IMG/VR virus record: IMGVR_UViG_3300025168_000320
Location: 1 to 33,691 of that record
DNA: 33,691 bases
Direction: 5' to 3' (one strand)
Source of the DNA: a virus
The notes beneath the pieces were generated by a model. The model saw nothing but the letters and a program-made list of their open reading frames with translations. It was not told where the DNA came from and made no database searches. This document shows positions 18,603-29,012 of this stretch, one piece after another (the stretch's first letter is position 1; every line of letters begins with the position of its first letter). The position numbers were made by a program, and so were the translations under genes.

Positions 18603-18788
18603 TTATTCCCATATCCTTGCTATTCTTCTTAGAAAACCAAGACTCGCTCCAAACCCAAAGGCTACTCCAGCAATCTCTAAATTTCCAAAGTATAAAGCGA
18701 ATGAACATAGTATGTATGCAGTAAATCTAAATACACCATATATAGAGAAATCATTTTTAGACTCTCTTCTACTTTTATCAATTATCAT
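18603..18788 (-). CDS. Small membrane protein
   Basis: 61 aa. Short charged N-terminus, then two hydrophobic segments, FRFTAYILCSFALYFG (about 21-36) and LEIAGVAFGFGASLGFL (about 37-53), ending in RRIARIWE. ATG overlaps the preceding gene's TGA (ATGA). Two close transmembrane helices with basic ends resemble small holins or inner-membrane inhibitors, but location in the recombination operon argues against a late lysis role. Function unknown. Confidence 0.6.
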   Translation of the reverse strand: MIIDKSRRESKNDFSIYGVFRFTAYILCSFALYFGNLEIAGVAFGFGASLGFLRRIARIWE

Positions 18789-19210
18789 TTAAATTCCTCT
18801 ACTCTTACTTTTTTAATAAGTTTATAATCTGCATTCTCAAACTCTAAGAACTCAATAACTCTTGGATAGTTAAACAATGACTTTGCTCTATTCTCTCTAA
18901 TCTTTTTAAGCTTCTCTCCATCTCTTTTAAATGGGTGGAGTTTATTATCTAATCCTCTCTTAGTAGGATGATATTTTCCATTGTCATCTTTTTTAATTAG
19001 AGGGTTATCTCCTCCTCTAAGTCTACATAGGCTAGTGTTCCAGTAACCTTGATAGTCTCTTCTAAGCTTCCATCTACCACCTTCCCACTTAGATTCTATC
19101 GCCCAACCTCCATGTGAACCTTTCTTTACAGACTTCATTAGTCTATTCATCTCTGAGAATTTTAATGGCTCTTTCTCTAACCAGTTAATTAAGTACGTTG
19201 ATTTGTTCAT
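18785..19210 (-). CDS. Hypothetical basic protein, possible nucleic-acid binder
   Basis: 141 aa from ATG 19210 (MNKSTYLINWLEKEP), chosen because AAGGAAGG lies 9 nt upstream; an earlier ATG at 19219 overlaps the upstream gene. STYLINWLEKEPLKFSEMNRLM may be a winged-helix-like start; GGWAIESKWEGGRWKLRRDYQG is a beta hairpin. About 30 percent Lys/Arg/Trp. Family not recognised. Confidence 0.6.
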   Translation of the reverse strand: MNKSTYLINWLEKEPLKFSEMNRLMKSVKKGSHGGWAIESKWEGGRWKLRRDYQGYWNTSLCRLRGGDNPLIKKDDNGKYHPTKRGLDNKLHPFKRDGEKLKKIRENRAKSLFNYPRVIEFLEFENADYKLIKKVRVEEFK

Positions 19211-19211
19211 T

Positions 19212-19394
19212 CTATACACCTTCCTTTAGATTCATTGTGTCAGCTAAAGAGTTAATGAGTCTCATTATCTCTATTCTAATTCTAGCTGCATCTAATACAT
19301 CTATCTTATCTAGCTGTAGATTCAGCTTTTTCATAGAACTTCTAACACTATTCTCTGAACTTGAATCCAGAGAACTATTTTTTAATTGATTCAT
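19212..19394 (-). CDS. Small helical protein, first gene after a regulatory gap
   Basis: 60 aa; Ser-rich N-terminus then amphipathic helices (KKLNLQLDKIDVLDAARIRIE, LINSLADTMNL). AAGGAAATAA before the ATG. Its upstream 130-bp gap (19395-19524) carries a plausible minus-strand promoter and repeated TTATCTTGTT sites, so it leads a transcription unit toward the exonuclease. May be a small regulator or a helper; no motif. Confidence 0.55.
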   Translation of the reverse strand: MNQLKNSSLDSSSENSVRSSMKKLNLQLDKIDVLDAARIRIEIMRLINSLADTMNLKEGV

Positions 19395-19524: not shown

Positions 19525-20817
19525 CTATACACTATATTCAAGTACTTCATAGTCCTCTGCTTTATTCTTATCGTAGAACTTAGCCATCCTCTGATCAACA
19601 TATTCTCTAACATCACTATCTAACCTTAAGTACTTGAAGAACTCTTCATAGGTAAGGTCTCTGTTTATTAGTATATCTAGAATCTCAGCACTTCTATATG
19701 CAGATACACCTCCTTTAGATATCTCTATACCTGTATCTACTATAGCTGTACATATCTTAGTCCAATTAAGTATCTTATCTTGATTGATAGTACCAGAGTG
19801 ATATCTAAACTCTACAGAGCCATTGATTATTCTAGAGTGCATATTCATACCACAGTATCTAGAATCATTGTACTTCTCCATAGATGGGTCTACACCCCAA
19901 GAGTTATACCAAGCATCTATGAATTCATCATTAGACTCTATTGCAAGTATATCTGACCTAGACATAGGTATCCTTCTACACCATCTACCATTGTCTCTAG
20001 AAGGTGGTAACATCTTGTAGATTACATCTTGTACAGCCTTACCTAGTAATAGAATATGTTTGAGCTGCTTCCATTCACAGTCTCTAGCGTCTACGTGTAC
20101 GTGTAAACCACAGCTTCTATTAACATCAAAGTCTGAAGAAAGGTATTCAGTTAGATTTGCTATACGATTATATAGTTCATCTCCATTAGAAGGATTCCTC
20201 ATCACCCACTCTACACCACTACCTCCCTCTCCTCTATCTATACTGCCATCATGGACTGGTCTAAACGTCTCTGGGTGATTAGTATCTTCACAATCCCAGT
20301 AATTCCATTCTTTTGTAATGGTTTCTACTTCTAGACCTACTAACCTCATAGATTTGATAATACGATTAGACCTAGCATCTTCTCCCATATTTCTCTGAGA
20401 GTAACTATCTAAGTCTACTTCCTCTTCTCCTTGGTAACATTGTTCGCAGTAATACTCTTCATTAGAATCACTCCAATGTAATTCATCTCTAGTGTGTTCT
20501 AATTCGCAAGTATCACACGTAGAGTAAATTTCATAGTAGCAATCTTCACAGTAGGAATCACCATTCTCCGTAAGACGAAGGTAATTAGACTCTGACCACA
20601 TAGAGCAACCACAGTCATCGCATTGGTATATATCCTCCTGGCAAGAATCACATAGAAATTCCTTAGTCTCTCCATCTACTTCTATAGATTCTTGATAGTC
20701 ATCAGTAATTTCTTCACAAGAGGAACATATCACCTCATCTGGTTTTACTTCTGCAGATGTATTATGGTTAACAGAATGTGTTGTTCCATTAGTATCTGTG
20801 TATACATTTGGTGGCAT
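19525..20817 (-). CDS. Amidoligase (Amidoligase_2 family) with N-terminal zinc-finger array
   Basis: 430 aa. Residues 31-127 hold three successive CxxC...CxxC modules: C31/C34-C56/C59, C66/C69-C90/C93, C101/C104-C124/C127, rich in acidic and Tyr residues. The catalytic part starts at GLEVET (161-166) and continues with HDGSI (189-193), GVEWVM (201-206), CGLHVHVD (236-243), CGMNMHS and SVEFRYHSGT, the conserved series of the predicted COOH-NH2 ligases related to glutamate-cysteine ligase/glutamine synthetase. Such enzymes join a carboxylate to an amine with ATP. Strong AGGAGG 4 nt before ATG. It follows a 106-aa gene and a class-II glutamine amidotransferase, which could supply ammonia or process glutamine. 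Substrate unknown. Confidence 0.85.
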   Translation of the reverse strand: MPPNVYTDTNGTTHSVNHNTSAEVKPDEVICSSCEEITDDYQESIEVDGETKEFLCDSCQEDIYQCDDCGCSMWSESNYLRLTENGDSYCEDCYYEIYSTCDTCELEHTRDELHWSDSNEEYYCEQCYQGEEEVDLDSYSQRNMGEDARSNRIIKSMRLVGLEVETITKEWNYWDCEDTNHPETFRPVHDGSIDRGEGGSGVEWVMRNPSNGDELYNRIANLTEYLSSDFDVNRSCGLHVHVDARDCEWKQLKHILLLGKAVQDVIYKMLPPSRDNGRWCRRIPMSRSDILAIESNDEFIDAWYNSWGVDPSMEKYNDSRYCGMNMHSRIINGSVEFRYHSGTINQDKILNWTKICTAIVDTGIEISKGGVSAYRSAEILDILINRDLTYEEFFKYLRLDSDVREYVDQRMAKFYDKNKAEDYEVLEYSV

Positions 20818-20825
20818 ACATCCTC

Positions 20826-21146
20826 CTAAGCTATTGCGTAGTTAGCAGTTATCATATAGAAAGCCATATAGTTAATCTCTCTAAGCCAACCTATTCTTTT
20901 AAGAGTCTTGTATATACTCTCTGGCTCTACTGATTCTACTATTATGCCTTCTTGTTGTTCTATCTGCTTGGCTACATAGTTAAGATAAGACTCAAATGAA
21001 TCTGTATCTACAAAAGGATTGTTCTTAGCTTTCTTATAGAGTTTCTTCATTACATATAATTTAGATTTTACACGTATTGGATTCTCTATACCAACTACTA
21101 TCGCTGATCGCTTCTTCTTAGATGAAACAAGTTTGTCTATCATCAT
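20826..21146 (-). CDS. Hypothetical protein between amidotransferase and amidoligase
   Basis: 106 aa from ATG 21146 (MMIDKLVSSKKKRS), supported by AAGGAG 8 nt upstream; the first ATG at 21170 is less likely. Overlaps the end of the amidotransferase gene by 29 nt and is followed 8 nt later by the amidoligase, so the three are co-translated. N-terminal half is Lys-rich; the middle (SFESYLNYVAKQIEQQEGIIV) looks helical; it ends in MAFYMITANYAIA. Unknown family; could be a partner, adaptor or substrate of the ligase. Confidence 0.6.
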   Translation of the reverse strand: MMIDKLVSSKKKRSAIVVGIENPIRVKSKLYVMKKLYKKAKNNPFVDTDSFESYLNYVAKQIEQQEGIIVESVEPESIYKTLKRIGWLREINYMAFYMITANYAIA

Positions 21147-22239
21147 CAGACTCTCTCCTTCCATTAACATCTACTATTTTAGAGGTATCATACTCGTAGC
21201 AGCTACTACATATATAACAGCCATGAGTCTTAATAGGGTTGTCTGCCCATTCTCCACAGTATCCACAATCTATTCCCTCTTCATACTCTCTTTTAGAGAT
21301 ATTCTTTCTTACATTGTACTCACAGTCTACACATATATACTCTCTAGTATCTGCATTGTAGATTATATCCCACCATGCTGTATGATTGTTACATACATCA
21401 CAGTCTTTATCTCTAGAGTCTGTGCCGAAGCTATCATTATAACTACTAAACTCGTTATAGTGTCCTCCGAAGTAATTAGTCTCTAACATATAGTTAGATG
21501 CTATTACATTTGTATCATACGACTTCTTAGTGAAGTTCATCTTTCTATTAAACTTACTAGTATCTATAGTATATAGAGTATCATTCTTCAACTCATGTAT
21601 ATCCATAGATATTTCTGTACCTTTAATAGATTCTTCTAGAATGTCTTGTGTAGAGGCATAGAGCAATACTCTAGCTTCTTTCCAATAGCCAAAATAACAA
21701 GGTCTACCTTTCTCTTTTAATAGATGTAGTATATCTCTATTATCCTTATTCCAGGCGAGTGCGTAGTCTCCGTATATTTCATCTAGACATTCTTGAAGGT
21801 TATTATTGGAATTAAATAGAGCAAATACAGCCTGAGAATCTACTTCGTAAACTTCTTTTTTGTTTACAGAGATATCTGTATGGTTATGTATTATTCCATT
21901 ATGAGTTCCAATCACAGAGCCAATGTGGAAGGGGTGAGCATTTTCCAGAGTTATCTTTCCGTGGGTCTTCCATCTAGTATGTCCCAATACTACAGATGTC
22001 TCTGGGGTGAGCTCTTCTATGATCGTATCCCAATCTCTATGCTTGACAAGATTACTTGACTTTTTTAGAGACTTGAATACCATAGGGTTCTTCCCATTAC
22101 TAATAAAAGCAAGTCCTGTAGAGTGTTCACCTCTAACTACTGATAGTGCAGTAAGCTTAGTTAGAACTCTCTCCAGTTGCTTTAACTCGTACTCTGTTTG
22201 TGCGTTTTTCTTTTTGGCTATGCCAAATATTCCACACAT
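21118..22239 (-). CDS. Class-II glutamine amidotransferase (Ntn hydrolase) with C-terminal zinc fingers
   Basis: 373 aa. MCGIFGI places Cys2 as the N-terminal nucleophile after Met removal; VRGEHSTG (35-42), GHTRWKTHG (86-94), NAHPFHIG (100-107), THNGIIHNH (112-120) and GDYALAW (157-163) are the GATase-II landmarks seen in GlmS/PurF/AsnB. Only the glutaminase domain (about 1-235) is present, without isomerase or synthetase domain. Residues 280-347 carry two zinc modules, C280/C283-C303/C306 and C325/C328-C344/C347, similar in style to those in the amidoligase encoded downstream. It probably hydrolyses glutamine to deliver ammonia. AAGGAAAT precedes the ATG. Confidence 0.9.
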   Translation of the reverse strand: MCGIFGIAKKKNAQTEYELKQLERVLTKLTALSVVRGEHSTGLAFISNGKNPMVFKSLKKSSNLVKHRDWDTIIEELTPETSVVLGHTRWKTHGKITLENAHPFHIGSVIGTHNGIIHNHTDISVNKKEVYEVDSQAVFALFNSNNNLQECLDEIYGDYALAWNKDNRDILHLLKEKGRPCYFGYWKEARVLLYASTQDILEESIKGTEISMDIHELKNDTLYTIDTSKFNRKMNFTKKSYDTNVIASNYMLETNYFGGHYNEFSSYNDSFGTDSRDKDCDVCNNHTAWWDIIYNADTREYICVDCEYNVRKNISKREYEEGIDCGYCGEWADNPIKTHGCYICSSCYEYDTSKIVDVNGRRESDDDRQTCFI

Positions 22240-22283: not shown

Positions 22284-22700
22284 CTATATCCAATAATATT
22301 CTAGGTTATCTGGTTCATTCCAACCATACCTTGAATAGAACTTAAAGTCCTTTCTAAGTAGGTTGCTTCTATGAGATGCGTGTAGCTTTTCTTTTCCTAG
22401 CCAATGTGGCATCTCTACGTTCTCCGAGACTCCTATCATTTCCATAGTATTGTTGTAGCCTCTGAGAATCCATTCCTCTATCATTTTATTCTTGTAGAGG
22501 AGCAGAGCCTCTTCGTAGCCTTTCCACATAGTCACAGCTGGGTGATTAAGCCACCCTCTATAGCTTCTACCTGATTTCGTAGGTACTCCAGATAGAGCGT
22601 TAAATATTTGTAGAGCTTCGACTCTCTGTTTACCTAAACGTCTGTAGTCTAAGGACTGTGCAGAGAGAGTGAAGTCTTTATATGGCAGGAACGTTTGCAT
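22284..22700 (-). CDS. MSMEG_6728-family protein, annotated elsewhere as pyrimidine-dimer DNA glycosylase
   Basis: 138 aa from MQTFLPYKDF at 22700 (family-typical start; GGGAG lies just upstream). Conserved series: MQTFLPY-DF--SA--LD, RLGKQRVEALQI, GWLNHPAVTMWKGYEEAL, EW--RGY, then PHWLG-E-LHASHRSNLLRKD and YSRYGWNEPDNLEYYW. This family is usually named pyrimidine dimer DNA glycosylase/endonuclease V by distant relation to T4 DenV, implying repair of UV damage. The C-terminal HRS-L-RKD box is typical for longer members. Repair of sunlight damage would suit a phage from lit waters. Enzymatic name is inherited, not shown. Confidence 0.75.
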   Translation of the reverse strand: MQTFLPYKDFTLSAQSLDYRRLGKQRVEALQIFNALSGVPTKSGRSYRGWLNHPAVTMWKGYEEALLLYKNKMIEEWILRGYNNTMEMIGVSENVEMPHWLGKEKLHASHRSNLLRKDFKFYSRYGWNEPDNLEYYWI

Positions 22701-22878
22701 CTTCTCCCACCCATACATTCATAATAAGTTCTCTATCATGTGCATCTATGAATCTAATAACACCTATAGAAATTTTATCATTATCATTTCTCGTCTCTAG
22801 CTTTACTGACTTAATCTCTGTTATACCTTTAGAGGCTAGTAATGTGTAGATAGCCGAGTTTATAGTTTTAGTATCCAT
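22678..22878 (-). CDS. Small hypothetical protein
   Basis: 66 aa. Helical first part (INSAIYTLLASKGITEIKSVKLE) and two beta strands (ISIGVIRFIDAHDRELIMNVWV). Overlaps the glycosylase start by 23 nt; begins 1 base before the stop-proximal end of the membrane gene upstream. No motif; probably a small alpha/beta protein. Confidence 0.6.
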   Translation of the reverse strand: MDTKTINSAIYTLLASKGITEIKSVKLETRNDNDKISIGVIRFIDAHDRELIMNVWVGEDANVPAI

Positions 22879-28417: not shown

Positions 28418-28665
28418 TGAAAAAAGTCAATTTTAATTTAGAAATAGAAGTTCATAAAGATTTAAAAAATGAAATTCTTAAAGAATATATTTCTAGTTAT
28501 CTTATAAATCAACAAGCATTTGATGATTTTAGATTAAACATTATTGGAGGAAAAACCTATCCTAAAAATTTTGAGATAGGTTGTGTAAAGTTTGATTTAA
28601 AAAATGATAAGATAACTGAGATAAGACCTTTAAAGAAAAAAGCTAAAAAGAAAGCTAAGAAATGA
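28417..28665 (+). CDS. Hypothetical protein with Lys-rich tail
   Basis: 82 aa. N-terminal strand (VNFNLEIEVH), a helix, and a C-terminal strand followed by PLKKKAKKKAKK, a nucleic-acid-like basic tail. Coupled on both sides (TAATG; ATGA). No family recognised. Confidence 0.6.
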   Translation: MKKVNFNLEIEVHKDLKNEILKEYISSYLINQQAFDDFRLNIIGGKTYPKNFEIGCVKFDLKNDKITEIRPLKKKAKKKAKK

Positions 28666-29012
28666 AATTAGCTGTATATGGAACATTAAGAAGTGGAAAT
28701 AAAAATACAGGTATATTAGAAAACTCCTCATTAGTTTTTCCAGGGCATCATACTTTTCCAGCAGTTATTCAAAATAATAATGGTTCTGGAACTGTAGTAG
28801 AAGTCCATGATGTAGATAAAGAAGATTTAGCAAGGTATGATATCTATGAAGGCATTAAATCTGGACTTTATAGAAGAGTAAAGGCTGATGTCAAAATGGA
28901 TAATGGAGATATAGAAAATGCCTGGGTGTATGTTGCTGGAGATGAATTAATGCAAAGAAGTAATTCTTTTAAGGTTATTCAAAGCGGAGATTGGTACAAT
29001 AGAAAATTTTAA
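28662..29012 (+). CDS. Gamma-glutamylcyclotransferase / AIG2-like protein
   Basis: 116 aa, full length for the family. YGTLRSG (6-12) is the substrate-binding loop; LARYDIYEGIKSGLYRR (56-72) contains the conserved acidic residues and Tyr-Arg of the cyclotransferase fold; NAWVYVAGD forms the last strand. These enzymes cleave gamma-glutamyl amines to 5-oxoproline and free amine. It may undo or complete the reaction of the amidoligase at 19525-20817, with which AIG2-like proteins are known to be associated by genome context. Embedded between terminase subunits, ATGA overlap upstream. Confidence 0.85.
   Translation: MKLAVYGTLRSGNKNTGILENSSLVFPGHHTFPAVIQNNNGSGTVVEVHDVDKEDLARYDIYEGIKSGLYRRVKADVKMDNGDIENAWVYVAGDELMQRSNSFKVIQSGDWYNRKF

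Follow-up and report, generated by a model that had tools for sequence, protein, structure and literature searches.

Three consecutive minus-strand genes in the window, the 33,691-base IMG/VR virus record analyzed here, encode a class-II glutamine amidotransferase (GAT), a 106-aa protein without a known family (X) and an Amidoligase_2 enzyme (AMID-B), and the same order was found in 67 distinct related cassettes. Family membership, intact active-site residues, fold, gene order and constraint on X were observed. On the evidence of the sequences and structural models, it is roughly an even call that the cassette is a pared-down form of the phage amidoligase (peptide-modification) system to which X has been added. 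The X-containing variant is what is new here; the idea of peptide modification by phages, credited to Iyer, Aravind and co-workers when this cluster was first annotated, had been published before (Iyer et al. 2009, cited in PMC10580990, with an account in PMC5498523).

Organization of the Cassette

The window encodes a P22-like portal, a DnaB helicase, a Sak annealing protein and a C5-cytosine methylase. The annotated phage collection yielded no close relative: the central 8 kb of the window gave no DNA match there, and the terminase showed ∼25% identity to the best among the matches listed. The features considered are as follows.

21118..22239, minus strand: GAT, class-II glutamine amidotransferase (373 aa; PF13522, E=1.1e-11)
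20826..21146, minus strand: X, 106-aa protein of no known family (ATG at 21146)
19525..20817, minus strand: Amidoligase_2, AMID-B (430 aa; PF12224, E=3.7e-19)
28662..29012, plus strand: GGACT, γ-glutamylamine cyclotransferase-like protein (116 aa; PF06094, E=3.9e-15), directly before the terminase gene

The cluster boundaries assigned in the first-pass annotation (19525-22239) were exact, and the minus-strand order runs uninterrupted from GAT (22239-21118) through X (21146-20826) to the amidoligase (20817-19525). The genes had been described as consecutive and overlapping; they are consecutive, and GAT and X do share 29 bp, but X and the amidoligase gene are separated by 8 bp. An AGGAGAG motif lies just 5′ of the X ATG, where the mechanically called open reading frame is 114 aa, and AGGAGG spans the X stop codon ahead of the amidoligase gene. 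Together, the GAT/X overlap, the 8-bp spacing and the AGGAGG over the X stop codon suggest translational coupling.

Directly upstream of GAT, at 22284-22718 (minus strand), is a Pyr_excise gene (4e-23) for a protein resembling pyrimidine-dimer DNA glycosylases such as T4 endonuclease V. Downstream of the amidoligase gene, at 18785-19219 (minus strand), a 144-aa protein is encoded that has no Pfam match and a weak PHROG match (E 0.057). The cassette matched no known defence system in PADLOC. Zinc modules on both enzymes, a second amidoligase in relatives and the GGACT gene were additional to what had been annotated initially.

Active-site Residues and Zinc Modules of the Two Enzymes

GAT comprises a glutaminase domain (residues ∼1-240), within which GATase_6 (PF13522) was matched at residues 80-196 with 45 bits against a cut-off of 27, and C-terminal CxxC zinc-type modules (∼280-347). 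The earlier description of an amidotransferase lacking a synthetase domain is accurate; the C-terminal part carries CxxC pairs instead. At least two such pairs were present in every close GAT, and none in 11 of 16 outside GATs. Profile searches with GAT matched GlmS and PurF structures. Residues Cys2, His87, Arg89, Thr92, His102, Asn114, Gly115 and Asp134 were identical in all 68 close relatives, leaving the glutaminase residues intact throughout; by comparison with GlmS, these include the catalytic nucleophile, the Asn-Gly pair of the oxyanion site, and an Arg and an Asp that bind glutamine. GlmS itself holds glutamine through Arg73, Asn98, Gly99 and Asp123. The class-II hallmarks are present in GAT: an N-terminal Cys nucleophile (Cys2), Asn114-Gly115 for the oxyanion, and Arg89 and Asp134 for binding glutamine.

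The amidoligase carries LIM-like zinc modules at its N terminus (residues 31-127), containing three CxxC motif pairs similar to those of LIM domains (profile match 1.2e-5), followed by a ligase core (∼150-425). Assignment to Amidoligase_2 was upheld by a PF12224 match at residues 218-360 (70 bits against a cut-off of 22), by retention of catalytic-type residues and by a predicted glutamine synthetase/γ-glutamyl ligase fold (model pLDDT 88). Structural matches to the model were led by YbdK (Z 12.9 over 236 residues), plant glutamate-cysteine ligase (Z 11.9) and glutamine synthetases (∼10-11), with PafA also among the Foldseek matches (E=0.066). The amidoligase shares its core fold and the conserved ExE, HxH and ExR pattern with YbdK, a GCS2 carboxylate-amine ligase of the glutamine synthetase superfamily, but is only 10% identical to it in sequence and differs in its N-terminal zinc modules and in having X and GAT as neighbors.

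Comparison was extended to 138 amidoligases, consisting of 65 AMID-B proteins encoded downstream of X, 49 proteins of a second type encoded upstream of GAT (AMID-A) and 24 outside members. Residues Glu163, Glu165, Asp190, Glu203, His239, Arg274, Asn325, Glu336 and Arg338 were identical in all 138, and His241 was kept in all but one. Alignment thus revealed intact catalytic residues in each of the 114 cassette amidoligases, and both GAT and the amidoligase look catalytically competent. The zinc cysteines were retained in nearly all cassette amidoligases, and the zinc module of GAT is weakly similar to the last of the amidoligase modules (hhalign probability 52%, as against 0.1% for the ligase core). 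A LIM-like zinc module also occurs at 4903-6264 of contig L011, on a protein retrieved by that module alone.

Conservation of Protein X

Besides the window protein, 63 distinct, full-length relatives of X were recovered from viral contigs. X consists of a basic N-terminal segment, a helical core (residues 29-91) and a conserved hydrophobic C-terminal tail that extends up to the stop codon. In the AlphaFold model, the core blocks reached pLDDT values of ∼83-93 and the tails fell below 50. Mean information was nevertheless 2.97 bits over residues 11-27 and 2.68 bits over residues 92-106, compared with 2.6-3.1 bits in the helices, so that conservation in the low-pLDDT tails roughly equals that in the core. 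Low pLDDT in the tails (44 sequences) is not proof of disorder.

Values of dN/dS for X against five relatives were 0.09, 0.11, 0.16, 0.17 and 0.42. Over the four relatives for which values were computed, GAT gave 0.20-0.28 and the amidoligase 0.25-0.37; X was the most constrained of the three genes in three of these four comparisons and the least constrained against L005. These estimates indicate purifying selection on all three cassette genes, and strong selection on X. Taken with the 67 cassettes that share the gene order, they mark the arrangement as non-fortuitous.

The 106-aa product was initially described as unknown, and no convincing match was obtained in Pfam, PHROGs, NCBIfam, PADLOC, PDB sequences or PDB and BFVD folds. 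The best BFVD fold matches (E 0.06-0.2) were small phage proteins without names. A match to DUF5312 (8e-5) involved only 7 of 44 members and was taken as incidental. With three different members as queries, tblastn gave no match to X in named phages, and the single 15-residue match in bacterial and archaeal genomes was judged spurious.

Gene Order and Distribution

X, followed by the amidoligase gene, lay immediately downstream of GAT in 67 of 68 distinct close GATs, the lone exception being a locus cut by a contig end. Thus, the survey for a conserved three-gene order was positive, and the 106-aa gene, far from being absent in relatives, separates GAT from the amidoligase gene in all but that truncated locus. 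In relatives, as in the window, X usually shares some bases with GAT, or else directly adjoins it. AMID-A, a larger amidoligase (∼460-680 aa), is encoded directly upstream of GAT in 51 of the 67 cassettes and is missing from the remaining 16, among them the nearest relatives of the window, which itself has a single amidoligase. On the GAT tree, the X-bearing GATs form one group, with the exception of the very long-branched L012, and the four-gene cassettes make up a sub-group in which AMID-A has apparently been lost once (L100). This single tree, which carries no rooting test, points to one gain of AMID-A as the probable history. No X was detectable in more distant GAT-amidoligase pairs.

At positions 5812-8051 of L012, a distant zinc-bearing amidoligase gene precedes a short GAT, and X was not matched there. 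Two cassettes and two GGACT genes were present on each of two long contigs (80,282 and 63,940 bases; L023 with L037, and L088 with L092); each contig probably combines two related genomes that were joined during assembly. L010 (IMGVR_UViG_3300032134_000011) has the same length as the window, 33,691 bases, but is a different virus with an amidoligase ∼35% identical. Terminase relatives without X were contig fragments, apparently ending before the expected cassette position, and were not scored as losses. OM43 phage MEP401 was rejected as a carrier because its first 22 kb gave a weak GAT match only and no match to X or the amidoligase.

Synteny in the lineage extends to genes beyond the cassette, including a 120-148-aa gene, a PDDEXK nuclease gene and Sak. 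Every X-bearing cassette belongs to a single lineage of uncultivated phages whose flanking genes are conserved, so that synteny does not in itself prove that the genes act together. Common descent contributes to the fixed order alongside any joint function, and adjacency of the cassette genes may derive in part from that ancestry.

GGACT was present in 44 of 50 cassette-bearing contigs and in all 15 terminase relatives searched. Because it adjoins the terminase gene throughout the lineage, its co-occurrence with the cassette is not independent evidence. Independent support for a link comes from the X-less relatives L119, L125 and L126, in which GGACT directly follows GAT. GGACT is therefore a possible functional associate of the cassette, located outside its operon.

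Comparison with Known Phage Systems

Clusters of GAT, Amidoligase_2, COOH-NH2 ligase, ATP-grasp and GGCT genes have been described in LUZ24-like, phiEco32-like and Zobellviridae phages (PMC5498523). The podophage cassette, as in Pseudomonas phage UFV-P2 and Pseudoalteromonas phage PSA-HP1, shares with the window GAT, Amidoligase_2, an AIG2/GGACT-type cyclotransferase and surroundings of replication genes. In contrast to it, the window lineage adds X and zinc modules on both enzymes, and most relatives add the second, larger amidoligase. The 180-209-aa protein that precedes the amidoligase in podophages showed no relationship to X, profile comparison having been negative for X as a shortened form of it.

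The COOH-NH2 ligase (PF14395) was found in 5 of 7 known phages but in none of 40 X-type records (including the window), which are often fragments. Likewise, an ATP-grasp ligase was matched in both control phages and in none of 33 cassette records, again including the window and often fragmentary. The substrate may consequently differ from that proposed for the published cassette. In Arthrobacter phage Waltz (Laroyevirus), the GGACT, amidoligase and GAT families are likewise encoded by consecutive genes, but the amidoligase precedes GAT, no X match lies between or beside them and GGACT is within the same gene run.

Proposed Mechanism and Alternative Explanations

If the cassette is a reduced peptide-modification system, coupled translation would yield GAT, X and the amidoligase together, and these would form a complex; in relatives with AMID-A, both amidoligases would take part. 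With ATP, the amidoligase would activate a carboxylate, most probably that of a glutamate side chain, and join it to ammonia or an amine, while GAT would handle glutamine or a γ-glutamyl group; in the simplest arrangement, ammonia would be released next to the ligase. X would be a small subunit without catalytic activity, its conserved tails serving to link the enzymes to each other or to present the substrate; its constrained termini, not confidently folded in the model of X alone, were counted in favor of such a role. The zinc modules may bind partner proteins or a protein substrate, and GGACT could release γ-glutamyl amines as 5-oxoproline. The target would be a host or phage peptide or protein, modified early in infection; early action is suggested by the location of the cassette among replication and recombination genes.

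As regards the glutamine-fed ligation originally predicted, the competent-looking enzymes, the glutamine synthetase/γ-glutamyl ligase fold and the conserved gene order give it partial support, but a feed of ammonia from GAT to the amidoligase is putative; class-II GAT folds can also remove γ-glutamyl groups (EgtC, PMC9103826). The presence of GGACT in the same phage makes γ-glutamyl chemistry equally possible.

Such chemistry could take the form of protection and release, in which the amidoligase adds glutamate through its γ-carboxyl to a free, peptide or protein amine, from which GAT and GGACT remove it again, GAT being an EgtC-like hydrolase instead of an ammonia source. Precedent by analogy is provided by the ergothioneine pathway, where EgtC, a class-II GAT-fold protein, removes a γ-glutamyl residue and its partner EgtA is a homologue of γ-glutamyl ligases (PMC9103826), a pairing that resembles the two cassette enzymes. 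GAT and GGCT have also been listed as the degrading half of the podophage cassette (PMC5498523), and GGACT occurs in both the window and its relatives. The window GAT, however, matched EgtC weakly (E=0.0004, below cut-off) and was scored far better by GlmS profiles. All of the GlmS glutamine-holding residues are present in GAT, which fits a glutaminase, although γ-glutamyl hydrolysis is also compatible with them. Taken as a whole, protection and release is a tentative candidate with clearly less than an even chance.

A comparable, minority likelihood is given to envelope modification for superinfection exclusion, whereby peptidoglycan peptides would be altered and the hydrophobic tail of X would anchor the complex at the inner membrane. 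Cell-wall modification against superinfection has been suggested for phiEco32-like, LUZ24-like and PSA-HP1 phages (Iyer et al. 2009, cited in PMC10580990; an account is also given in PMC5498523), and the C-terminal 16 residues of X have a mean Kyte-Doolittle value of 1.4, rising to 2.0 in the most hydrophobic members. Yet the conserved tail, at ∼16 residues, would make a short membrane helix and in some members has a mean hydropathy close to zero, the ATP-grasp and COOH-NH2 ligases of that pathway were not found in the records searched, and the LIM-like zinc modules suggest cytoplasmic protein contacts.

It is unlikely that the genes have no joint function and that X is a lineage-specific early protein merely located between two enzyme genes in a conserved region. 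The synteny of flanking genes and the failure to detect X in more distant GAT-amidoligase pairs would be expected on that account. Against it, X was present in 67 of 67 complete cassettes, whereas many small flanking genes were present in only part of the loci; X overlaps GAT in the window and in relatives tends to overlap or adjoin it; and X was more constrained than both enzymes in three of the four comparisons covering all three genes.

Least probable is a role for X as the substrate, a ribosomal product acting as carrier or tag that the amidoligase would amidate or conjugate at its C terminus or on a side chain, much as PafA does with Pup: X is small and constrained, has conserved tails not confidently folded, never extends past its conserved C terminus and accompanies a ligase modeled with the superfamily fold of PafA, but its ends differ by clade (YAIA, YAIS and, in the marine clade, NIGV), unlike the strict ends of known tags, there is no terminal Glu or Gln, and structural matches were led by YbdK and glutamate-cysteine ligase, not PafA. 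The NIGV ending also led to an ssrA-like degron at the C terminus being dropped. It is similarly improbable that X is a viral carrier or tag without a relative in the libraries searched, amidated or conjugated to other proteins or amines by the amidoligase(s), with GAT and GGACT acting as ammonia source or eraser.

Significance

GAT and amidoligase genes have been noticed in phages since 2009 without a known substrate. In the cassette described here, the set is pared down to two enzymes and a single small, conserved protein, and the cyclotransferase gene lies in another part of the genome. Were X a tag, these phages would have a means of tagging proteins or modifying peptides that depends on neither Pup nor ubiquitin. 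If the cassette works as a unit, it would be a small, tractable system for finding what these phages modify, with X as a new handle.
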